A stretch of 32,526 nucleotides of DNA from Bacteroidota bacterium (GCA_034439655.1 JAWXAU010000126.1:1-32526); one strand, 5' to 3'. Shown: positions 6,907-23,228, counted from the first letter of the stretch. The notes: a model not told the origin generated them from the sequence alone. Made by a program: numbers and translations.

Positions 6907-7449
6907 TTAGGAAAGTAATTGTTGCCTAAGTAAAAACTCTAACTGCCCATTTACCTTTTCAAGCTCATTGTTCAGATTTTCAAGTTCCTCATTTTGGCTT
7001 GCCAATTTTTCATTTTTCTCTTTAACTTCTTCTAAAAGTCTAGTGCGTTCACGCCTAAGGAAAAAAACTTCAGTGCCCTGCTTAATTGTGGTAAGCATTT
7101 GGTGTTCATCCCAAGGTTTTTGATGGTATTGAAATATATTCCCTTTATTGATGGCATCGACCAAAGCTGTAAAATCGGTATAGCCAGTAAGTAATACTCT
7201 GATAGGTTCTGGATTAATTTCGACCAATTTTTGCAAAAATTCCGTGCCTGTCATCTCAGGCATCCGTTGGTCGGTAATAACCATGGCAAAATCGTGAAGA
7301 TGGATTTCCTCCAAGGCTTTGATGGCTGAATCGCAGGTGTGCACCTCATAGTCTTTTCTAAAATGAGACTTAAACCCAATCAGATTCCCTGCCTCATCGT
7401 CAACATACAATATTTTTATTTTTGGGGTATTTAATTCTGAGTCCGTCAT
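6907..7449 (-). CDS. Receiver-domain protein with C-terminal coiled coil
   Basis: A 180-residue protein with no output domain other than a coiled coil. The receiver (about 10-125) has D17-D18, phosphoacceptor D60 in VITDQRMPEMTG, T88 in LLTGYTD and K111 in HQKPWD. The sequence around GNIFQYHQKPW is typical of the RpfG/hybrid-kinase receiver subclass. Residues 129-175 (RRERTRLLEEVKEKNEKL...) are charged, heptad-like and likely dimerise. The start is 35 bp from the start of the divergent ThiF-fusion gene, so both share one small control region. It resembles the receiver of the RR-kinase at 12565 and probably joins the same phosphorelay, perhaps docking a kinase or receiving phosphate as a sink. 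Confidence 0.9.
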   Translation of the reverse strand: MTDSELNTPKIKILYVDDEAGNLIGFKSHFRKDYEVHTCDSAIKALEEIHLHDFAMVITDQRMPEMTGTEFLQKLVEINPEPIRVLLTGYTDFTALVDAINKGNIFQYHQKPWDEHQMLTTIKQGTEVFFLRRERTRLLEEVKEKNEKLASQNEELENLNNELEKVNGQLEFLLRQQLLS

Positions 7450-7484
7450 CCTAAATTCGCCTGCAATTTATTAGAATTTTAAAA

Positions 7485-9755
7485 ATGTCCAAACAAAAAT
7501 TTTCAGAAATAAAAAATCACCGCACCTTTAACTTCAAGCCTGAGGTATGTACATTCAACGACACAAAGGATATACGGCATTTTGAGAAGGCATATCTGGG
7601 TGTGCAAATTCATGATGAAATTGTTAGCCAACTGTATGAATTGATTAAAATTGAACACCCCACGGTCAACTTTAAGGGTACAGATGTATATACAACAGTG
7701 AGAGATTATGATAAATTGGAATATAAGGGAGTATGGTTTTATTACCCCTGGAAAAACACTTTGGTGCATACTTTACAAAAAGAAGATTTTATAAAGGTGC
7801 GTACCAATCGCAATTTATATAAAATTACTCCTGCACAACAACAATTGCTAAGCACTAAAACTATTGGAATAATTGGACTCTCGGTGGGCAGCATTATTGC
7901 TACAACTATGGCCATGGAGCGAATAGCGGGTAATTTTAAGTTGGCAGATTTTGACACTCTGGAATTGTCGAACCTAAACCGCGTAAAAGCAGGGATAGAC
8001 AATTTGGGTTTACCCAAAGTAGTTGCTACTGCCCGACAAATATTGGAAATGGATCCCTATATTAATATCGAACTTTTTGAAGAAGGGATTACCGAAAACA
8101 ATATAGATACATTTATTGGAGGTAAAAAGCCCCTTGATATTTTGATCGAGGAGTGTGATACTTTATATATAAAATTTTTGGCCCGAGAAAAATGCAAATC
8201 ATTGCGGATACCTTTAGTAATGGATACGAGTGAAAGGAGTATGCTTGATATTGAACGATATGATTTGAATAAATCGCAAGCCTTATTTAATGGATTGGTG
8301 AAAAATATAAGTTCAGACCGAATATTAAAGATGAGTGCGATTGAAAAATTTGCAACCACAGTGCAGATAGTTGGCGAGGAGAATCTATCAGTAAAAATGA
8401 AAGCCAGTTTTTTGGAGATCCAACAAAGTATCCCCACTTGGCCACAATTGGCTTCATCGGTAGTGGGTGGAGGAGCATACACCACCATGGTGGCTCGTAG
8501 AATACTATTGGGCGAAAAAATACTGTCAGGAAGATATATCATGGATGCCGAAAGTATGATATTATCTGAACCAAAGGAAGCTATTAAAATAGATAAAAGT
8601 GACTGGGAATTGCCAAAAAAAGATATATTAACTGCGAAGCAACAAAAGCAAATTATTGGTCGCATAAAAAAGCAATATATATCTACAGAATCTATCGATA
8701 GTAAAACCATCAAAGCAATAGTAAAAGCAGGCTGCCGAGCTCCCTCAGGAGGAAATACGCAACCTTGGGAATGGATATTTAAACAAAATGTACTCTATCT
8801 TTTTCACCGCACCGAATTATCACATTCATTATTGGATAGTCAGCAATATGGAAGTTATATAGCTTTTGGGGCTGCTCTTAAAAATGTGGACATAGCCGCA
8901 AAGCATTTCGGTTTCAAAGCCAGCTATAATCGATTCCCCGATTCTGATTCGAGATTGATTGCAAGCATTGTATTTAAAAAGGAAATTTCTGAGGACGCTA
9001 ATGCATTTTATGATGCACTATTTCATCGTGTAACCAATAGAGAAATAGAACCACAAAAACTAACAGCCGCCGATAAGAAGAATATCATAGAACTAGAAAA
9101 GCTCAAAATGCCCAAAGGTTTAATTCTTCATACCGTTACCGATGAGGCTACCAAAAAATTGATGGGCGAATTTACAGGACATGGAACTGTATTTCGTTTC
9201 TTAAGTGACCGAGGTCACTATGACCTCTTTGAAAAAGAAATAAGATGGACAGAAAAAGAATATAATAAAACCAAAACGGGTATCGATATGGAATCTTTGG
9301 GTGTGGGTAAAGGTGAGGAAACCCTTTTTCGCTTTGCAGCCCAACCAGAGGTGATGCACAGCATGAAAAACTTTGACGGTGGGAACATCTTTTTCAACAG
9401 TGATGTGAAGGCCGCTCTCAATTCGATTTTTATAGGTATAATTGCAGGTAACAAGCACGATAATACTAGCTGGATAAAGGCCGGAGAACAACTACAAAAC
9501 GTGTGGTTGTGGCTTACCCATCAAGGTTATGCGGTGCAACCGATAGCAGCTTCAGTATTTATGGCAAACCAATTTCAGCACTTACCCAAAAATAGCAAAC
9601 TTGAGGAAGCAGTTCTGAAAAAATGGACAGCTATAAAAAAAATACTGCCATCAGGTTATGAACCTAAATTCATCATTAGAATATATAAACCTTTAAAAAA
9701 TCAAAAAATTGCTCTGCGAAAAAATACCAATGAGGTGTTGAAAATTATGAGCTAA
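7485..9755 (+). CDS. ThiF (E1-like) adenylyltransferase-nitroreductase fusion, Rv1355c/MoeY type
   Basis: A 756-residue two-enzyme fusion. Residues 1-115 are an unassigned N-terminal part. Residues about 120-350 form an E1-like/ThiF Rossmann domain: GLSVGS at 131-136 in place of GxGxxG, then DFDTLELSNLNR at 155-166, the ATP-binding signature, and K178. Residues about 405-735 are a nitroreductase-like flavin domain starting CRAPSGGNTQPWEW (417-430), the FMN-binding motif. The same architecture is known from mycobacterial Rv1355c (annotated MoeY), whose function is not settled. I see no zinc-binding CxxC pairs or ThiS/MoaD partner gene nearby, so adenylation of a small carboxylic substrate, followed by redox change, is as likely as protein modification. 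First gene of a five-gene plus-strand operon; 9 bp before the acyltransferase-like gene. Confidence 0.88.
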   Translation: MSKQKFSEIKNHRTFNFKPEVCTFNDTKDIRHFEKAYLGVQIHDEIVSQLYELIKIEHPTVNFKGTDVYTTVRDYDKLEYKGVWFYYPWKNTLVHTLQKEDFIKVRTNRNLYKITPAQQQLLSTKTIGIIGLSVGSIIATTMAMERIAGNFKLADFDTLELSNLNRVKAGIDNLGLPKVVATARQILEMDPYINIELFEEGITENNIDTFIGGKKPLDILIEECDTLYIKFLAREKCKSLRIPLVMDTSERSMLDIERYDLNKSQALFNGLVKNISSDRILKMSAIEKFATTVQIVGEENLSVKMKASFLEIQQSIPTWPQLASSVVGGGAYTTMVARRILLGEKILSGRYIMDAESMILSEPKEAIKIDKSDWELPKKDILTAKQQKQIIGRIKKQYISTESIDSKTIKAIVKAGCRAPSGGNTQPWEWIFKQNVLYLFHRTELSHSLLDSQQYGSYIAFGAALKNVDIAAKHFGFKASYNRFPDSDSRLIASIVFKKEISEDANAFYDALFHRVTNREIEPQKLTAADKKNIIELEKLKMPKGLILHTVTDEATKKLMGEFTGHGTVFRFLSDRGHYDLFEKEIRWTEKEYNKTKTGIDMESLGVGKGEETLFRFAAQPEVMHSMKNFDGGNIFFNSDVKAALNSIFIGIIAGNKHDNTSWIKAGEQLQNVWLWLTHQGYAVQPIAASVFMANQFQHLPKNSKLEEAVLKKWTAIKKILPSGYEPKFIIRIYKPLKNQKIALRKNTNEVLKIMS

Positions 9756-9764
9756 AAAAATCCC

Positions 9765-10466
9765 ATGATAGCAAATGTAAAAGTTTTTAGGCCCATCGAC
9801 GATGCCATGTCCACCGACAAGTTTATTGCAGGCTACGCAGAAGTACTGAAGGTATATGGTGTAACCAAGGTAACCTCAACCAATACCGATTGGCGATATA
9901 ATCCTAATAATTATATTATTTTATTTGAAGATGAGCATGGTGATAAAGCATTAGGTGGTGGGCGGATACAGATTTTCACACCCGAACAACGCTTGCCCAT
10001 GGAAAGTGCGGTAATGGAGAAGGACCCTAAGATATATGATATCATTAGAGAATTTAAACATTATGAAGCTGCTGAATTTTGTGGTTTATGGAATTCAAAA
10101 GAAGTAGCGGGGCATGGCATTGGCAGTATTTTTTTAGGCCAAGTTTGTGTTGCTATTTCCACCTTAATCCATCTTAAAGGCCTTTTTGCCCTTTGCTCTC
10201 CTCCATCACTCAGGAATGCTGTGCAAGCAGGTTTTGAGGTTATACGTTCACTTGGAAATAATGGAACATTTTATTATCCGAAAGAAAATCTCTTGGCAAC
10301 AGCAACCTGTGTGAAAGACTTGGTAAACCTCTCAACAGCGGACCCCAAACACCGCGTTGAAATTTTATCTTTGAGAAACAACCCCGAGCAGGTATATCAT
10401 GCAAATGGACCCAAAGGTGATCTAGTAATGAACTGCAATCTGAGCATTACACGTAGTAGGAGATGA
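9765..10466 (+). CDS. Putative GNAT/LuxI-like acyltransferase
   Basis: A 233-residue soluble protein that I cannot assign firmly. Its layout resembles GNAT-fold N-acyl transferases, including LuxI-type and N-acyl amino acid synthases: a strand YIILFEDEHGDKALGGGRIQIF (about residues 50-71), a charged loop, then E-A-A-E-F-C-G-L-W-N (105-114) where such enzymes have the conserved acidic strand, a G-H-G-I-G motif (118-122) where acyl-CoA binding occurs, and a late SPPSLRNAVQAGFEVI helix-strand typical of GNAT folds. No signal peptide. It starts 9 bp after the ThiF fusion and its stop overlaps the kinase start by ATGA, so the three are made together. A role in making the ligand for the sensor kinase is inferred; an unrelated enzyme is possible. 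Confidence 0.55.
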   Translation: MIANVKVFRPIDDAMSTDKFIAGYAEVLKVYGVTKVTSTNTDWRYNPNNYIILFEDEHGDKALGGGRIQIFTPEQRLPMESAVMEKDPKIYDIIREFKHYEAAEFCGLWNSKEVAGHGIGSIFLGQVCVAISTLIHLKGLFALCSPPSLRNAVQAGFEVIRSLGNNGTFYYPKENLLATATCVKDLVNLSTADPKHRVEILSLRNNPEQVYHANGPKGDLVMNCNLSITRSRR

Positions 10467-12568
10467 AACTTAGGTTATATATAGTCTTTACTTTAGTTTA
10501 TTTATATAAACCTGTTTCCGCTCAAATTATTTTTGAACAAAAAACAGGCGAGATGAATTTAGGCAAAAAATTAGATTACTTTGTAGATTCTAACCAAACT
10601 TTGCAAATTGGAGAGGTAATAAAACTTCCATTCAATAAAAAAATTTCAAGTGATTTTGAAATACCCAACTTGCAACTTACCAATTTTAATTTTTGGTTTA
10701 AGTTTCAAGTAAAAAACTACTCCGAATACCGCAAAATATTATTGGTATACGACCAACCTATATTAAATGATATTATATTATATAAAGTAAAAAATGGTGT
10801 CATCGATTCCACAGTATCTGGCGAAAGGGTTCCCATAAGTGATAGACAATTTAAATATAATATCCCTGTATTTGAGGTGGTAGACGATTCATCTGATTAT
10901 TATTTGAAAATAAGAAGTATAGGCACGCTACAACTTGACCTCAAACTTGCCACAGTCAATAAATTTGTGGAAGCACGATTTACCAAAAACCTATTATTGG
11001 GTATCTATTATGGTATACTCATTGTGATGTTTTTTTACAACTTTTTTATCTACTTCACGGTGCGGGATAAAACCTATATATACTATTCTGTATATATGAT
11101 AGTACTTATCGTTACGCAACTTGCACTTGAGGGATATGGAAACGTACTATTATGGCCTGATAATTTATGGCTCACGCAATATGCTATACTTCTATTTTCG
11201 CCATTGGTCAATATAACAGGAATTCTGTTTGCCAATAAATTTCTGAATGTAAAGGAAAATATTCCCATTCTGCATAAAGCAAGTAAAATTGTATTGGCGT
11301 TGCTTATTTTTATACTTGCTGTTAATTTATTTTATTCTAGACCCGTTGGTTATTATTATTTGAGAACTTTAATGGGACTAAGTGCTACTTATTTATTTGT
11401 GACCAGTATAGTAGCTGTTAGAAAAAAAATTCCTTCAGCCACTTATTTTTTGCTGTCGTGGAGCAGTCTTATAGCAGCCTTGGTGGTATATATATTGCGT
11501 GATGCGGGCGTGCTCGAACATAACAATCTCACCAATTATGCACTACAAATAGGCACAGCGATAGAAGTAACCTTGCTCTCCTTTGCACTGGGCGATAAAA
11601 TAAGACAGTATCGAGTTGAAAAAGAAATATCGCAGGCCGAAGCAGTGCGGGTGGCCAAACTAAATGAAGAAATATTGGCTGAACAAAATGTATTTTTGGA
11701 ACATCAAGTAAAGGAACGCACCTCGGAATTGAACAAAACTTTGAGCGATTTGAAACTAGCCCAAACCAAATTGGTGGATACCGAAAAAATGTCGTCATTG
11801 GGTCAGCTTACCGCAGGTATTGCACACGAAATAAATAACCCTATTAATTTTGTGAGTTCCAATATCAAACCCTTAAAACGTGATGTACAAGAATTGTTGG
11901 ACATAGTGCAAGAATCGGAAACATTATATATTGATGCTGGAGATACTGAAATGGTGGCCAAGCTCAATGCCATTAAGAAGAAATATGATTTTGATTATTT
12001 GAAAGAAGAAATCCCCTTATTATTTGATGCCATACAAAATGGTGCCGAGCGTACCGCCGAAATAGTAAAGGGTCTTAAATCATTTTCGAGAGTAGATGAG
12101 CAATCGCTTAGATTGTCCCACATTCACGAAGGAATCGACTCTACCTTGATGTTGCTAAAAACACAAATGGCTGGAATAATAGTTAGCAAAGAATATGGCG
12201 AAATACCCTTGGTAGAGTGTTTCATTGGGAAAATGAATCAAGTATTTATGAATATACTTAGCAATTCCGTTTATGCACTTAGTCATAGCAAAGAAACATT
12301 GACACCCCTCGAAATAAAAATAAAAACCTACAACGATGATATAAACTTATACATGGAATTTAGTGATAACGGATCCGGTATTTCCGAAGAAAATGTAAAT
12401 AAAATATTTGAACCTTTCTTTACTACCAAACCAGTGGGTGATGGAACGGGGCTGGGATTGTCAATAGTTTATAGCATTATTGAAATGCACAAAGGCCAAA
12501 TTATAGCATTGTCGAATAATAATTTTGGAACATTATTTAAAATCACCATACCTTTGAAACAAGAATGA
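10463..12568 (+). CDS. 7TM-DISM sensor histidine kinase
   Basis: A 701-residue membrane sensor kinase. Residues 1-20 are a signal peptide; 21-170 are an extracytoplasmic 7TMR-DISMED2-like domain; 175-385 hold seven transmembrane helices of the 7TMR-DISM type, which bind small ligands in characterised relatives. A coiled coil (390-440) leads to the kinase: H-box SSLGQLTAGIAHEINNP with H455, an insertion at 490-525, N-box MNQVFMNILSNSVYAL (591-606), G1 DNGSGI (635-640), and G2 GDGTGLGLSI (659-668). All catalytic motifs are intact. Overlaps both neighbours by ATGA. Sensing a product of the two upstream enzymes is an inference from the operon. Confidence 0.93.
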   Translation: MKLRLYIVFTLVYLYKPVSAQIIFEQKTGEMNLGKKLDYFVDSNQTLQIGEVIKLPFNKKISSDFEIPNLQLTNFNFWFKFQVKNYSEYRKILLVYDQPILNDIILYKVKNGVIDSTVSGERVPISDRQFKYNIPVFEVVDDSSDYYLKIRSIGTLQLDLKLATVNKFVEARFTKNLLLGIYYGILIVMFFYNFFIYFTVRDKTYIYYSVYMIVLIVTQLALEGYGNVLLWPDNLWLTQYAILLFSPLVNITGILFANKFLNVKENIPILHKASKIVLALLIFILAVNLFYSRPVGYYYLRTLMGLSATYLFVTSIVAVRKKIPSATYFLLSWSSLIAALVVYILRDAGVLEHNNLTNYALQIGTAIEVTLLSFALGDKIRQYRVEKEISQAEAVRVAKLNEEILAEQNVFLEHQVKERTSELNKTLSDLKLAQTKLVDTEKMSSLGQLTAGIAHEINNPINFVSSNIKPLKRDVQELLDIVQESETLYIDAGDTEMVAKLNAIKKKYDFDYLKEEIPLLFDAIQNGAERTAEIVKGLKSFSRVDEQSLRLSHIHEGIDSTLMLLKTQMAGIIVSKEYGEIPLVECFIGKMNQVFMNILSNSVYALSHSKETLTPLEIKIKTYNDDINLYMEFSDNGSGISEENVNKIFEPFFTTKPVGDGTGLGLSIVYSIIEMHKGQIIALSNNNFGTLFKITIPLKQE

Positions 12569-13674
12569 AGCCATCTGAAAGCAAACCCAAAATTTTATAC
12601 GTAGATGATGAACCACATAATATAACTGGTTTAAGAGCTATACTTCGTAAGGAATACGAGGTTATTGGGTGCATGTCAGTAAAGGAGGCTTATGTGTTAT
12701 TAGCAGAGCAAGAGTTCCAAATAATAGTAGCCGATCTTAAACTGGGAGAGGATGATGGTGTGGATTTTTTGGACGATATCAGGCTAAAATATCCCCGCCC
12801 AGTAAAAATATTGCTTACTGCATTTTTCGATTTTGAAGCAGCGGTTAAAGGTATCAACAAGGCCAAAATATTTAGCTACCTATTTAAACCCCTCAACGAG
12901 GACGAGGTATTGTCGACCATTAGAATTGCTTACGAGCATTATCAGAATAATACATTGCTCGAGTTCAGGAAAGACGAACTAGAAAAAGCACATGAAGAAC
13001 TTAACCGTTTCGTGTATAGTGCCTCACACGACATGCGTGCCCCACTTAGATCGATAATGGGCATTATAAAAGTGGCCGAAATGGAAGGTATTGATGAAAG
13101 GGTGCAACACTATTTTAGTTTGATAGAAAGAAGTGTGAACCAGCTCGATGCTTTTAATGTAAACCTTATTTCCTACTTTAAAAACAGTAAACAAGAAACT
13201 GTAATTGAACCTATTGATTTTAAAGAGATAGCCCGAGATATATTCGAACAATTCCAATACTATCCAGGGGCAGAGTCAATTAATTTTATAATAAACACAA
13301 ACCAAAATACACCTTGGATGGGTGATCTATTTAGGATCAAAATTATTTTTAATAACCTAATAACCAATGCTATTAAATTTCAGCGGAACGAAATAGCCAA
13401 TAAGCACATTATTTTTACGTGCGATACCAAAGGCCCAGACAAAGCTGTTTTAACATTTGAAGATAATGGTATTGGCATAGACGAAGAGAACCAAAAGAGA
13501 ATTTTTGAAATGTTTTATAGGGCCACCAGAGAAAATTCAGGATCGGGAATCGGATTGTATATTGTAAAAGAAGCAATAAATAAAATAGGAGCTCTAATTA
13601 GAATTGAATCAAAACCAAATATGGGAACTAAATTTATTTTGGAAATACCATCTAAATTAAACATTGAAGCATGA
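12565..13674 (+). CDS. Receiver-histidine kinase hybrid (N-terminal receiver)
   Basis: A cytoplasmic 369-residue protein with the receiver in front of the kinase. Receiver 8-125: D14-D15, phosphoacceptor D57 in IIVADLKLGEDDG, T85, K108 in LFKPL. A helix (130-148) leads to H-box SASHDMRAPL with H155, N-box N264/N268 (FNNLITNAIKF), G1 DNGIGI (300-305) and G2 GSGIGLYIV (326-334). All key residues are present. Such proteins often take phosphate from an upstream kinase at the receiver and pass it on after a control of their own kinase activity. Its receiver resembles that of the divergent 6907-7449 protein. ATGA overlaps on both sides imply translational coupling with the sensor kinase and the CheY-like protein. 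Confidence 0.93.
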   Translation: MKPSESKPKILYVDDEPHNITGLRAILRKEYEVIGCMSVKEAYVLLAEQEFQIIVADLKLGEDDGVDFLDDIRLKYPRPVKILLTAFFDFEAAVKGINKAKIFSYLFKPLNEDEVLSTIRIAYEHYQNNTLLEFRKDELEKAHEELNRFVYSASHDMRAPLRSIMGIIKVAEMEGIDERVQHYFSLIERSVNQLDAFNVNLISYFKNSKQETVIEPIDFKEIARDIFEQFQYYPGAESINFIINTNQNTPWMGDLFRIKIIFNNLITNAIKFQRNEIANKHIIFTCDTKGPDKAVLTFEDNGIGIDEENQKRIFEMFYRATRENSGSGIGLYIVKEAINKIGALIRIESKPNMGTKFILEIPSKLNIEA

Positions 13675-14066
13675 AGTTTTTATTAATTGACGATAGCGAA
13701 ATTGAACTTTATGTAACCTCTAGGTTGCTCGACAATGCAGGTTTATCTAGCAGTGTTCAAACATTTTTGGAGGCTAAGGATGCTTTGTCGCATTTGCATA
13801 CCATAAAAATGGAAGACCATAATCTTCCTGATGTAATTTTGCTTGATATACATATGCCAACCATGAGTGGCTTTGATTTTTTAGATAATTATATACAATC
13901 GTTAGGAGAAGTGTTGAGCGAACGCATTTCTATTATCATATTGTCGAGCACGGCCGACCAGAAAGATTTTGAGAAAGCAGCCAGATATGAAGTGGTAAAA
14001 GGTGTATTTGATAAACCACTTGATACTATAAGGCTTAAAAGCTTACTAGAAGAAATCAATTCTTAA
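13671..14066 (+). CDS. CheY-like single-domain response regulator
   Basis: A 131-residue stand-alone receiver: D7-D8, phosphoacceptor D59 in VILLDIHMPTMSG, switch S92/S93, and K115 in FDKPL. The form LLDIHMPTMSGFDFL...IIILSS is that of Rcp1-type receivers, which serve as partners of the preceding kind of receiver-kinase. There is no output domain. Last gene of the operon; it overlaps the hybrid kinase by ATGA and the convergent M23 peptidase gene by 11 bp, so no terminator lies between them. Confidence 0.92.
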   Translation: MKFLLIDDSEIELYVTSRLLDNAGLSSSVQTFLEAKDALSHLHTIKMEDHNLPDVILLDIHMPTMSGFDFLDNYIQSLGEVLSERISIIILSSTADQKDFEKAARYEVVKGVFDKPLDTIRLKSLLEEINS

Positions 14067-18176: not shown

Positions 18177-21100
18177 ATGTTTAATCCAATGCAAAAAAAA
18201 ATCAAATTCAAAGCAGTGTCAACCTTATTAGGGTTGATTTTTTTATTCTGTAGTTACCTATCTCAGGCCCAATACTGCCAACCGCAGTACACAAATGGAA
18301 CTGGTTTTGGGGTCTTTACTACCACAGTTCTCCTCGATTCATTGTTTGATAGTACTGGAGCCTCGGCCTCGCCTTACTATACTTACGATACTACTAAAAC
18401 CACTTCTTTATTTATAGGCAATACCTATAAAATGTCAATTAGCCCTGGCACCTTAAACAATTCCAATAGCATGGCTGTTTGGATTGATTTCAATGTTGAT
18501 GGCGATTTTACAGATGCGGGGGAAAAGCTTACACAAATGAACAATATGCCAACCAATGCTACCAGGAGTTCATTCAATTTCACGGTGCCCTGCGGTGCAA
18601 CTTTAGGCAAAACACGAATGCGGGTTAGGAATATGTTTAATAACAACAATACCAACATGGCTTCCTGTACGACCTATGGTTATGGGGAGACACAAGATTA
18701 TAACATTACCTTACTGGACAATCCATTACAGGTGGCTTCATCATTTGCCACCCAATACAATAACTATAATGTAGGCAAAGGGCTTACAAAACAAGAACTA
18801 TTATGTCTTAAAGTTTTTGTGGCTGGCTGTTCAGACACTGCTGATATGACCCAAATAAACTTTAACCTAAACGGAACAACTGACACTACTAATATCACAA
18901 AAGCTACGGTATATTATACAGGAAATACCAATCAATTTGACACCACGGTATTATTTGGTTCGTTGTCATCGCCAGGCAATTTATTTTCTATCTCGGGCAG
19001 TCAAGATATGTTGAAAGATACAAACTATTTTTGGTTAGCAGTTGATATTGCTGCCAATTCGACTAGTGGAAATAGTGTAGATGCTGAAGTGTTAGATTTT
19101 GTGGCGGATGGTTCACAGGATACCCCATCGATTACTGCTCCCAAAGGCAAACGCGTTATTGCTACCCCTATGACATTTAGTGATCTAAACGCCACTCAAT
19201 ATACTACTGGACAAGTAGGACGTGGAAGTTATAATAATGAAATTATAGGGATTGAAGTAGATATGAGTTCTACTGGTGCCCAAGTACCCCTTACCCAGTT
19301 AGCTTTGCATACAGGCGGTTCCACCAATCCTTCTACAGATATAACGCGGGCCCGTCTATATTATACTGGCGGCCAATCTTATTTCGATTCAGCGATATAT
19401 AAATTTGGGTCTAGCATCACCAACCCCAATGCTTCAATGGTATTTAATGGATCCGTTTATTTGCAGCCCGGCACCAATTATTTTTGGTTAACTTATGATA
19501 TAGCAGTAGGTGCAACCTTAGGCGATTCGGTTGATGCAATTTTGGATAGTGCCATAATTAACGGATCTCAACAATCAGCCACGGTTAGTGACCCTGCTGG
19601 TGAGCGTTTTATTTTGAACAATTATTGTGTTCCTGTGCACCCTGCCTGTGGAACTACATTTATTGACGGTGTGATATTTGGCAGTATTTCCAATACCAAA
19701 AGCGGGTGTTCAAGCCTGAACGGAAATGGATATAATGATTATCCACAATCATCCTATTATACTGCGGTAAACAAGGGCAATGCATATAATCTCACGGTTA
19801 ATAATAGTAACCAAAATCAAAGCTATTCATTATGGGGCGATTGGAACCAAAATGGTACTTTTGATGCAGGAGAGTGGACTCAGATACATAATGGAAATCA
19901 GTTGAACGCAAATGCTTCAATAACAAAATCGATTACAATTCCTTGCAGTGCTACCAAAGGTTGGACAAAAATCCGTTTACGCTCACGTGGTGTTCCTGCT
20001 AACAATGGTGCGGGTGATGCTTGCACGCAATTTGGTTCGGGCGAGACCGAAGACTATGTAATTTATGTAACCGACTCGCAAGTTTTCCAAAAAACTACAG
20101 TGACAGCAAGTTCTGCAGACGTAGCCACAAGCTCGACTAACAATGTAATTGTGAAAATACAAATGATGGCCTCCAATTGTGCCAGCACTCCTCAAGCTAC
20201 CGACTTTTATTTGCGGACAGCAGGCAGTACAAGTGCGTCAGCAGATATAACCAATGCAAAAATGTGGTATACCGGAGCCGTTGACACTTTTAAAACTACT
20301 ACACAATTTGGAAGTACATCAACTTCGCCCAGTGGTGCCATGAATTTCTCGGGTACTGCAAATATGACAGTAGGTATAAATTATTTTTGGTTGAGTTATG
20401 ATATTGCTTCGGGTGCCACCAATGGCAATTTTGTTGATGCTGTTTGTGATTCATTTAAGGTTTCTAGCAAAACCTATTTGCCAGAAGTAACTGCTCCATC
20501 GGGCAATAGGAAAATTGCTGCTTTGATGACATTTAGCGATGCAGTTTCGTTTCATAAAGATACAACGCCGTTGGTAGCGGGGTCAACCGGAAATCAAATA
20601 TTGACAGTGGCTGTGGTGATGAACCAAGGTGCTTCGGTAAACCTTACCGATATGACTTTTAACGCAAAAGGAAGTACCAGCATTACCAATGATATAACAA
20701 ATGCCCAACTTTATTCTTCTGGAAGCAGCAAAGCTTTTAATATTGCTACCTCTACAAAAGTAGGAAATACAATTACTGCATTAACTTCAACTTTTACCTT
20801 CACAGGTTCTGTTGCACTTATTCCTGACACAAACTGGTTTTGGTTAGTATATGATATAACCGCAATTGCCACCGGTAATGACCTAATTGATGCAGAATGT
20901 GTAAGCATGAAAATAAATAGCATCAACAATACGCCTTCTGTTACCGCACCCTCTGGCTCACGCTCAGTACTTCTTACCTACTGTGTTCCGGGTTTCCAAA
21001 ACGGTGGATGCAACAATTGGATTCAGGGTGTAACATTCAATAATATCAAAAACTTGAATACAGGTTGCACCAGTACTACTGCCAACCGTTATAATAATTA

Positions 21101-23228
21101 TCCTTATACCGCATTTACTACCACCGTGCTCAAAAACAGTAAGTATGAATTAAAAATGACTGCAGCAACTAATGGTACGCAGATTTTTGGCGTTTGGATT
21201 GACTTTAATCAAAACAGTACTTTTGATGCTAACGAATTTTATAATTCAGGAAATGCTATTAGTGCTAATGCAAACGATTCAATTACTATAACGATTCCTT
21301 GTACCGCAAAATTGGGTTATACAAGAATGCGTATTCGTTCACGTTCTAGCCAGGCAACAATTACAAGCACCGACCCTTGCACTACCAATTTTGGGTCGGG
21401 TGAGGCAGAAGACTATACTATACTAATAGAAAACAATGATAACACTGGAGCCTTAGGCAAAGATAAAATGCTATGTGCTGGTAGTTTGATTAATTTAAGC
21501 CCAGGTGGTGGATTTGTAAGTTACGATTGGAGTACAGGCGATACTACCAGTTCTGTTGGTATAATAACTGCAGGAACTTACTATGTTACTTACAAAAGCG
21601 GCTCTGGTTGCGTAAATATAGACACCATACTTATTACTGATGCAGCACCAGTTACTGTGAGCGTAGGAAACGACACTTCAATATGCAATGGAGGTCCAGC
21701 CACCTTTAATGCAGGAACAGGATATACTTCATATCTGTGGAATACTGGCGATACTACACAAAAAATTACAGTAACTACGCCCGGATATTATTATGCAACC
21801 GTTACCAACACCGATGGCTGCACAGCTACCGATACTGTGGAGTTAATTAAAAAGCAACCTGCTAATTTCACCTTAGGTGTAGACAAAACTATATGTGTTG
21901 GATTCACTACGGACCTTGATCCAGGCTCTGGACTGGTTAGCTATTTATGGAGTACGGGTGCTACTACACAAAAAATAACTGTGAGTACAGCAGGTACCTA
22001 TAAAGTAACTGTGGTTGACAATGGTGGTTGTGTGGGCGAGGACTCAATCGATATAAGTGTATCGACTGCCATGACCAATTTCGGCAATGATATTACTACT
22101 TGCTTTGGCAATGATATTATATTAGATGCTGGTAACAATTCAACTTATAAATGGAATACTGGAGCTACTACACAAACTATTAAATTGTCAAATGTAGGAA
22201 CAGGTACATTTATAGTTGATGTGGTAGATCAATATGGATGTAAAGCTACCGACACTATAATGGCAACCATTAATCCATTGCCTACTTTAAATTTAGGCCC
22301 TGATAAATATATATGCAATGGTGGACCTATAGCCCTAGATGCTGGTAGCGGACAAAGCACTTATGCATGGAATACAGGTGCCGCTACGCAAATTATCAAT
22401 GTGACAACTGCTGGCACATTTGGCTTAATTATTACTTCTCCATTGGGATGTACTGCCAGCGATTCTATTACGCTTACAGCCTCTTCCGTTTCAGTAAATG
22501 CGGGCCCCGATAAAACCTATTGCGAAGGCAACGTCGATTCTTTCTTTGTGGCACAAGGATATGGAAGTTATAGTTGGAAAGACTTGAGTAACGGAACCTT
22601 AATGAGCATCGGTAATTATTTTACACCCGCTAAATCGGGAACTTATAGTATCACAGTTTCTAATAGTGTAGGCTGTACCGCAACCGATACCGTGATGGCA
22701 ACCATCAACCCGATGCCAGATGCAAGCTTTACCTATGCATGGATTAGTAGCGTTGTTAATTCTGTCAAATTTACTCCGAGCAAAACAGGACAAGGAACTT
22801 ATAAATGGGACTTCGGCGATGGAGGACAAAACACGCAAGAAAGCCCAATATATACTTACCCTACTTTTGGTACTTATAAAGTAACCTTGCTTGTAACCAC
22901 CCCTGCAGGATGTGCCAAAACATTTGTACAATCATTGTCTATTACAGGTGTGTGGGAAGCTGAACAAAATGATTTTGCTGCTACCGTAATGCCCAACCCA
23001 TTCAATGAGCAAAGTATTATACAATACACTTTGAAGCAAGGTGAATATATTACCGCTCAATTATATGATATTCAAGGAAACTTGGTTGAAACATTATATA
23101 ATGGTAAACAAGAAAGTGGTAAGCAACAACTCTTCATCGATGGTGGTAAATTAGCCGCTGGATTATATATGATTCGTATTGCAGGACAGAATAGTAATTC
23201 AGTAATTAAAGTTAGTAAGACTGAATAG
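18177..23228 (+). CDS. Giant modular T9SS surface protein (GEVED, BNR-associated, Ig-like, PKD)
   Basis: An exported 1683-residue protein. Signal peptide 1-32 (ending SQAQ; the second ATG, codon 5, is an equally likely start). GEVED domains at about 33-180, 483-632 and 935-1085; BNR_assoc_N-like domains in pairs at 184-328/331-478 and 637-780/783-932, each with a NYFWL.YDI or NWFWLVYDI motif. So the front is [GEVED-BNR-BNR] twice, then GEVED. Six Ig-like repeats (1086-1512), with YLWNTGDTTQKI-type cores, follow; a PKD domain (1513-1592, KWDFGDGG) and a type A sorting domain (1603-1683, MPNPFNEQS to KVSKTE) end it. The role is probably adhesion or carbohydrate/glycoprotein binding at the surface; no catalytic site is visible. 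Confidence 0.92.
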   Translation: MFNPMQKKIKFKAVSTLLGLIFLFCSYLSQAQYCQPQYTNGTGFGVFTTTVLLDSLFDSTGASASPYYTYDTTKTTSLFIGNTYKMSISPGTLNNSNSMAVWIDFNVDGDFTDAGEKLTQMNNMPTNATRSSFNFTVPCGATLGKTRMRVRNMFNNNNTNMASCTTYGYGETQDYNITLLDNPLQVASSFATQYNNYNVGKGLTKQELLCLKVFVAGCSDTADMTQINFNLNGTTDTTNITKATVYYTGNTNQFDTTVLFGSLSSPGNLFSISGSQDMLKDTNYFWLAVDIAANSTSGNSVDAEVLDFVADGSQDTPSITAPKGKRVIATPMTFSDLNATQYTTGQVGRGSYNNEIIGIEVDMSSTGAQVPLTQLALHTGGSTNPSTDITRARLYYTGGQSYFDSAIYKFGSSITNPNASMVFNGSVYLQPGTNYFWLTYDIAVGATLGDSVDAILDSAIINGSQQSATVSDPAGERFILNNYCVPVHPACGTTFIDGVIFGSISNTKSGCSSLNGNGYNDYPQSSYYTAVNKGNAYNLTVNNSNQNQSYSLWGDWNQNGTFDAGEWTQIHNGNQLNANASITKSITIPCSATKGWTKIRLRSRGVPANNGAGDACTQFGSGETEDYVIYVTDSQVFQKTTVTASSADVATSSTNNVIVKIQMMASNCASTPQATDFYLRTAGSTSASADITNAKMWYTGAVDTFKTTTQFGSTSTSPSGAMNFSGTANMTVGINYFWLSYDIASGATNGNFVDAVCDSFKVSSKTYLPEVTAPSGNRKIAALMTFSDAVSFHKDTTPLVAGSTGNQILTVAVVMNQGASVNLTDMTFNAKGSTSITNDITNAQLYSSGSSKAFNIATSTKVGNTITALTSTFTFTGSVALIPDTNWFWLVYDITAIATGNDLIDAECVSMKINSINNTPSVTAPSGSRSVLLTYCVPGFQNGGCNNWIQGVTFNNIKNLNTGCTSTTANRYNNYPYTAFTTTVLKNSKYELKMTAATNGTQIFGVWIDFNQNSTFDANEFYNSGNAISANANDSITITIPCTAKLGYTRMRIRSRSSQATITSTDPCTTNFGSGEAEDYTILIENNDNTGALGKDKMLCAGSLINLSPGGGFVSYDWSTGDTTSSVGIITAGTYYVTYKSGSGCVNIDTILITDAAPVTVSVGNDTSICNGGPATFNAGTGYTSYLWNTGDTTQKITVTTPGYYYATVTNTDGCTATDTVELIKKQPANFTLGVDKTICVGFTTDLDPGSGLVSYLWSTGATTQKITVSTAGTYKVTVVDNGGCVGEDSIDISVSTAMTNFGNDITTCFGNDIILDAGNNSTYKWNTGATTQTIKLSNVGTGTFIVDVVDQYGCKATDTIMATINPLPTLNLGPDKYICNGGPIALDAGSGQSTYAWNTGAATQIINVTTAGTFGLIITSPLGCTASDSITLTASSVSVNAGPDKTYCEGNVDSFFVAQGYGSYSWKDLSNGTLMSIGNYFTPAKSGTYSITVSNSVGCTATDTVMATINPMPDASFTYAWISSVVNSVKFTPSKTGQGTYKWDFGDGGQNTQESPIYTYPTFGTYKVTLLVTTPAGCAKTFVQSLSITGVWEAEQNDFAATVMPNPFNEQSIIQYTLKQGEYITAQLYDIQGNLVETLYNGKQESGKQQLFIDGGKLAAGLYMIRIAGQNSNSVIKVSKTE

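Follow-up and report, generated by a model that had tools for sequence, protein, structure and literature searches.

A candidate signal synthesis-and-sensing module of Bacteroidota that joins oxazolone-type enzymes to a 7TM-DISM kinase relay

In the LuxM/LuxN quorum-sensing system the gene of the signal synthase lies beside that of a membrane kinase. The synthase and kinase genes of CqsA/CqsS and LqsA/LqsS/LqsR are likewise adjacent (PMC3376566), and the PhcB/PhcS system of Ralstonia signals by a methyl ester (PMC11960443, PMC8578825). Another group of described enzymes makes acyl-oxazolones: the N-acyltransferase TrzA (Rv1356c) together with TrzS (Rv1355c) forms N-acyl tryptazolones, whose ring is closed in an ATP-dependent reaction and then desaturated in an O2-dependent one (PMC12856293), and the related TyzACB and OxzAB pathways give tyrazolones and phenazolones (PMC10404671). 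The authors of the oxazolone work remarked on the likeness of these compounds to N-acylhomoserine lactones (AHLs), and left open their physiological role, a "major unresolved question" in the TrzAS work (PMC12856293). Here we describe a block of six genes at positions 6907-14066 of a 32,526-nt stretch of DNA from a Bacteroidota bacterium (GCA_034439655.1 JAWXAU010000126.1:1-32526; the window, meaning the whole stretch analysed), which sets enzymes resembling those of the oxazolone pathways beside a kinase relay and has counterparts in some 95 further genomes of Bacteroidota.

The enzymes of the block compare most closely with TrzAS of mycobacteria and Rhodococcus, in which a fusion of ThiF and a flavin-dependent oxidase (FDO) of the same curated family adjoins an N-acyltransferase gene. 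The first plus-strand gene (7485..9755) encodes a 756-aa TrzS/OxzB-type fusion of a ThiF-like cyclase (residues about 109-360; PF00899) and an FDO of the nitroreductase superfamily (about 400-700; PF00881). It matched the NCBIfam model NF005901 ("Rv1355c family") at 620 bits over residues 19-754 (cut-off 476), a sequence match that makes it a member of the Rv1355c (TrzS) family of ThiF-FDO cyclase-desaturases. The ThiF residues D155, D157, N165, R166, K178, D225, D255 and R258 are invariant in 84 full-length relatives (ThiF-only proteins included) and in two actinobacterial TrzS-like proteins, and the flavin mononucleotide (FMN)-site motif APSGGN..QPW, which shows few changes among 51 fusions, is common to the actinobacterial members. 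A Rhodococcus protein of the family is 31% identical to the window fusion over 707 aa. A constant offset does not suffice to place TrzS residues D217, R540 and Q651 on the window fusion. By analogy with TrzS the fusion would form and desaturate an oxazolone, and what it acts on and makes in this organism is predicted on the same analogy. A preliminary description of this DNA had given Rv1355c no settled role, a statement overtaken by the activity now assigned to TrzS (PMC12856293).

The second gene of the strand (9765..10466, plus) encodes a 233-aa acyltransferase (AT). Its AlphaFold2 model, made with 33 homologues in the alignment, had a pLDDT of 90.7 and as structural neighbours FeeM (2g0b; Z 15.8, root-mean-square deviation 2.8, 177 aligned), LasI (Z 14.9) and BjaI (Z 14.8), and Foldseek placed RpaI, LasI, MesI and BjaI on top with E-values near 5e-6. 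In this model the protein is an AHL-synthase/FeeM-fold ACYLTRANSFERASE. FeeM and BjaI are also the neighbours of the published TyzA model (PMC10404671). Thirteen positions are invariant across the 33 homologues. The resemblance is one of fold only: the protein had no Pfam or NCBIfam match, no informative hit came from PDB sequences or plasmids, the Pfam LuxI (Autoind_synth) family matched neither the window protein nor its homologues, and the Pfam FeeM family (PF21926) did not match the window protein and reached one of the 33 homologues with an E-value of only 0.045. Hence the GNAT fold expected in the preliminary description is present in the model, and its term "LuxI-like" stands for the fold and falls for the sequence family. 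On the strength of fold and relatives the AT is probably an N-acyl amino acid synthase in the role of TrzA, TyzA or OxzA. Sequence comparison found no likeness between the AT and a Streptomyces GNAT adjoining ThiF, and a weak one to the 259-aa neighbour of the Rhodococcus fusion (hhalign E 0.0039, 166 columns).

The remaining genes set the locus apart from TrzAS: at the actinobacterial loci inspected there are no histidine kinase or receiver genes, c-di-GMP genes being found instead in Mycobacterium tuberculosis and on one Rhodococcus plasmid, and the acyltransferases there are barely alike in sequence to the Bacteroidota AT. In the window a 701-aa 7TMR-DISM sensor histidine kinase (10463..12568, plus) has a signal peptide-like start, a DISMED2 periplasmic domain (PF07696, 75.5 bits), seven transmembrane (TM) helices (PF07695, 165.6 bits), a HisKA domain with the motif AHEINNP (PF00512, 31.5 bits) and a HATPase domain (PF02518, 70.4 bits), all over cut-off. 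It is followed by the second relay protein, a 369-aa receiver-histidine kinase hybrid of REC-HisKA-HATPase architecture (12565..13674, plus; PF00072, PF00512, PF02518), and by the last, a 131-aa lone receiver (13671..14066, plus; PF00072, E 7e-14). Diverging from these genes on the minus strand is a 180-aa response regulator (6907..7449), which consists of REC (PF00072, E 8.6e-17) and a C-terminal coiled-coil-like tail with no DNA-binding domain; the divergent promoters would have to lie in or overlap the 35-bp intergenic stretch at 7450..7484. The plus-strand genes are spaced by a 9-bp gap between fusion and AT and then by three 4-bp overlaps. Open reading frame (ORF) calling reproduced every coordinate of the preliminary description, comprising six ORFs with their strands, gaps, overlaps and 35-bp divergence, and Pfam backed its domain calls of ThiF-nitroreductase, 7TM-DISM histidine kinase, receiver-kinase, lone receiver and receiver with C-terminal extension. 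The window's genome (3.5 Mb, 205 contigs) has a single ThiF-family protein and three 7TMR-DISM genes over cut-off.

Three samples were used to follow the block: 64 genomes of the window's own family (given as order level), in which the module is patchily distributed, 395 genomes from across Bacteroidota (phylum sample) and another 395 from the class Bacteroidia (class sample). The AT was present in 32 of the 64 family genomes and a module-type DISM kinase (at least 370 bits) in the identical 32, both being absent from the other 32; ThiF of the Rv1355c family was found in those 32 plus one genome having a fragment that runs into a contig end. In the phylum sample 13 of 395 genomes had the AT and all 13 had the kinase adjoining it. 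These 13 kinases were the 13 best matches to the sensor profile and no kinase lacking an AT scored above them. Since module members went into the profile, this ranking is in part circular, which does not apply to the presence or absence of AT and ThiF or to the tree tests given below. The class sample contained the AT in 76 of 395 genomes. Pooling gave 100 genomes with the AT, and a DISM kinase was present at 95 of the 96 loci having more than 1.5 kb downstream. Synthase-kinase quorum systems are expected to keep the synthase gene next to that of a membrane histidine kinase, and this arrangement is found at 95/96 loci. Among the 89 pooled loci with long flanks a receiver-kinase (REC-HK or REC-PAS-HK) came after the DISM kinase at 80 and an opposite-strand REC was found at 76, and gene content outside the conserved block varied. 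Of 97 relatives 92 had the histidine motif of the kinase, and contig ends truncate two of the other five; at L045, an apparent exception, the module is complete. As the genes are co-present across samples, chance adjacency is rejected, and the block is almost certainly a single functional unit. The single-module reading of the preliminary description was to fail if fusion and kinase homologues mostly lay apart, and it came through this check: enzymes and kinase occur together in the family sample (32/32), in the phylum sample (13/13) and overall (95/96).

The enzyme expected to cap the AT product proved to be interchangeable. At the 100 loci it was a ThiF-FDO fusion (53), ThiF alone (35), a class-I S-adenosylmethionine (SAM) methyltransferase of about 255 aa (seven; L134, L142, L146, L153, L172, L176 and L182), an ICMT-family membrane methyltransferase (two; L073 and L074) or a Methyltransf_2 O-methyltransferase (one; L138), and two loci, one at a contig end and one in genome G002, had no assigned capping type. 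The three kinds of methyltransferase are mutually unrelated and always lie between AT and kinase. If, as we infer, they act on the carboxylate of an N-acyl amino acid, cyclisation and methyl-ester formation could both mask the free carboxylate, like the lactone in AHLs. These variants parallel PhcB/PhcS/PhcR, in which a methyl-ester signal made by a methyltransferase is read by a histidine kinase, although that system has no N-acyl amino acid synthase and uses another kinase and other regulators. At L044, L138 and L182 a NarL-type REC-GerE regulator comes after the relay in the lone receiver's place, which makes transcription the end point of at least some modules.

If the kinase reads the tailored product, its sensor should covary with the capping enzyme, which is not expected of a kinase reading an unrelated cue. 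This covariation is the weightiest of the new findings. Trees of 93 loci were compared for the sensor domain, for the kinase core that shares its polypeptide and for the AT. Mapping of the five capping types takes 11 changes on the sensor tree versus 18 on the kinase core tree and 21 on the AT tree, and the split between cyclases and methyltransferases takes 3, 7 and 6 changes, respectively. Upon resampling of equal numbers of columns the 7TM part still came out lowest at 13.7 changes, the kinase core needing 19.2 and the AT 20.4. In a constrained-tree test the class-I methyltransferase loci, seven in all and grouped by their gene content, were held as one clade. Both the kinase core (log-likelihood 143 lower, p 1.5e-8) and the AT (126 lower, p 2e-7) rejected this clade, and the sensor did not (held tree 24 better, p 0.73). 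The kinase cores of L172, L176 and L182 are nearest those of ThiF-type loci, which for L172 and L176 belong to their own families (as is also true of the AT), whereas the sensors of all three are nearest those of methyltransferase loci from other families. Two loci of the same genus, L044 (ThiF-FDO) and L138 (Methyltransf_2), have kinase cores of 87% identity and ATs of 76%, with sensors of only 47%. Because the sensor follows the capping enzyme and the kinase core and AT do not, product sensing is favoured over an unrelated cue, and these sequence comparisons make it quite likely that the sensor reads the block's own product.

The circuit we propose would begin with transfer by the 233-aa enzyme of a fatty acyl group from acyl-CoA or acyl-acyl carrier protein (acyl-ACP) to an amino acid, probably an aromatic one, as its fold and relatives suggest. 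The ThiF domain would then activate the carboxylate with ATP and close the oxazolone ring, and the FMN oxidase domain would desaturate it to give a neutral acyl-oxazolone, as expected of the TrzS family; in relatives the capping would fall to ThiF alone or to a methyltransferase, which would give a methyl ester. The product would partition into or across the inner membrane and bind the 7TM-DISM sensor of the neighbouring kinase, a step to which the phylogenetic data lend support. The kinase would phosphorylate the receiver-kinase hybrid, the two stand-alone receivers, or both; the anatomy of this relay is observed and its direction is presumed. Output would be by protein contacts or an unlinked regulator in the window module and by the NarL-type DNA-binding regulator in the variant loci. 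The view taken in the preliminary description, a synthesis-and-sensing module, is well supported by co-occurrence, AT fold, swappable capping enzymes and sensor covariation, and we consider it probable, with product, ligand, export and output all predicted. A role in quorum sensing is conjectural, and the chance that the module acts between cells is at best even. Slightly more doubtful is the wider proposal of a Bacteroidota-wide quorum-sensing family, in which a LuxI/FeeM-fold N-acyl amino acid synthase plus a swappable capping enzyme, forming an oxazolone or a methyl ester, would make a neutral signal for a 7TM-DISM kinase to read; capping enzyme and sensor would be exchanged jointly as a specificity cassette, with synthase and kinase core left in place.

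Several observations weigh against signalling by the module's own product. The oxazolones described so far are labile to acid and stay mainly with the cells (PMC12856293), which would suit a diffusing signal poorly, and no output gene was identified. The independent swaps of capping enzyme behind the covariation are few, and part of the covariation could be co-transfer by linkage because the capping gene adjoins the sensor-coding half of the kinase gene. The fast-evolving periplasmic domain alone shows no tracking (20.8 changes, 120 columns). Module-specific pocket residues were sought in the sensor and none clearly separates module sensors from other DISM proteins, as the most conserved residues (G184, Y192, N193, Y205, Y208, Q219, G224 and W333) are common to those proteins. 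In a same-genus genome L131 (G002:C3:251500-271400) has kept AT, kinase, hybrid and both receivers and has lost the linked fusion. L154 (G628:C1:6894800-6911600) has at 8007-9900 a divergent AT-like gene (62 bits) and ThiF with no kinase, and is the sole AT locus with flanks that lacks the DISM kinase. Finally, Actinomycetota relatives of TrzS had no adjacent kinase at the loci inspected (outside Bacteroidota these were plasmids only, of Rhodococcus and Mycolicibacterium; a GGDEF gene lies near the Rhodococcus plasmid fusion), and therefore the enzymes function elsewhere without this sensor.

The alternative that survives best is product feedback within the cell, in which the kinase would gauge the membrane level of the same cell's lipid and adjust its synthesis as a form of homeostasis, with no cell-to-cell role. 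The sensor covariation fits such feedback equally well, the sensor is membrane-located, the genes are translationally coupled, and cell pellets are enriched in tyrazolones and tryptazolones (PMC12856293, PMC10404671). Acyl-tryptophan intermediates, however, build up in the supernatant (PMC12856293), and two kinases plus two receivers, with a NarL-type regulator in variants, make a large apparatus for simple feedback. We regard this explanation as unlikely, albeit worth keeping in view.

Somewhat less likely again is cluster-situated regulation, whereby the relay would sense an unrelated cue (envelope stress, oxygen or an antibiotic) and switch on synthesis of an oxazolone or N-acyl amino acid that serves as antimicrobial, surfactant or membrane lipid without being the ligand. 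Regulators adjoining biosynthetic genes are commonplace, and the lack of a module-specific conserved sensor pocket agrees with this explanation, as do the induction of oxazolone production in Proteobacteria by sub-inhibitory antibiotics, the ties of trz/tyz loci to stress and the antimicrobial activity of N-acyl tyrosine derivatives (PMC12856293). It does not predict that the sensor should track the capping enzyme more closely than does the kinase core of the same polypeptide, and the conserved block contains no exporter, resistance gene or additional biosynthetic gene. Very improbable is a protein-modifying pair, in which the ThiF domain would act in the manner of an E1 enzyme, or the GNAT would acylate a relay protein, and no small molecule would be made: both families have protein-modifying members and the genes sit among signalling proteins, but the fusion scores over the cut-off of the Rv1355c family, whose relatives make small molecules, the conserved block has no ubiquitin-like partner, SAM methyltransferases in the capping slot better fit carboxyl capping of a small acid, and the closest folds to that of the AT are those of N-acyl amino acid synthases and AHL synthases.

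In its proposed logic the module resembles LuxM/LuxN, CqsA/CqsS and PhcB/PhcS, built from other parts. As in OxzAB of Pseudoalteromonas and TyzACB of M. tuberculosis, N-acylation, cyclisation and desaturation are expected, and TyzA shares its nearest folds, but no sensory genes have been described with those pathways and TyzB and TyzC are separate proteins. CqsA/CqsS and LqsA/LqsS/LqsR likewise have a signal synthase gene adjoining a multi-TM sensor kinase and relay, and an output domain is known neither in LqsR nor in the receivers of the window, but these systems and LuxM/LuxN employ other synthases and sensor domains. To our knowledge none of the three has a two-kinase relay or swappable capping enzymes. 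RetS and SagS are sensors of the same domain family but lack linked biosynthetic enzymes, and we know of no acyl-oxazolone ligand for sensors of this type. In our sensor model the periplasmic part resembles the RetS sensor (3jyb, Z 14.2), and the seven-helix bundle aligns with several G-protein-coupled receptor bundles, which may be merely a common helical-bundle arrangement.

A literature search that left out preprints and reached few subscription journals found no earlier description of a ThiF/acyltransferase/kinase module in Bacteroidota, so novelty is not proven, and a search of the same reach found no quorum sensing by a small-molecule synthase plus kinase in this phylum. The block suggests an undescribed chemical signalling circuit across Bacteroidota, which are abundant in gut, marine and soil communities. 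It also offers a lead on the purpose of bacterial oxazolones, a question that becomes directly testable because in Bacteroidota a dedicated sensor kinase goes with the enzymes. Joint exchange of capping enzyme and sensor domain, if true, would provide a natural set of matched signal-receptor pairs.

Some loci had further peculiarities. L131 has a remnant of the fusion at about 10600-10961 corresponding to C-terminal residues about 635-756, and an intact divergent fusion is unlinked on another contig (L046, 8689-10926). L046 was considered as a kinase-less fusion and rejected: its genome (G002) has the module on another contig. L184 (G767) has two tandem AT genes in one module, located between the ThiF-FDO fusion and the kinase (8005-9450). 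Within genera of the window's family the module seems linked to larger genomes, those of genus g3 being at least 3.2 Mb with the module and at most 2.8 Mb without it.

Elsewhere in the window an OmpR-type response regulator (REC plus Trans_reg_C; 198-902, minus) is unlinked to the block and is a conceivable output partner, and a 1683-aa protein (18177-23228, plus) has BNR_assoc_N, GEVED repeats, PKD and a type IX secretion sorting tail. The second DISM protein of the window's genome (L121, 2240-3802; G000:C37) is 520 aa long and stops after a kinase-like dimerisation helix, without an ATPase domain; kinase-less DISM proteins of 500-550 aa that resemble it are found in other members of the phylum (L115-L118).
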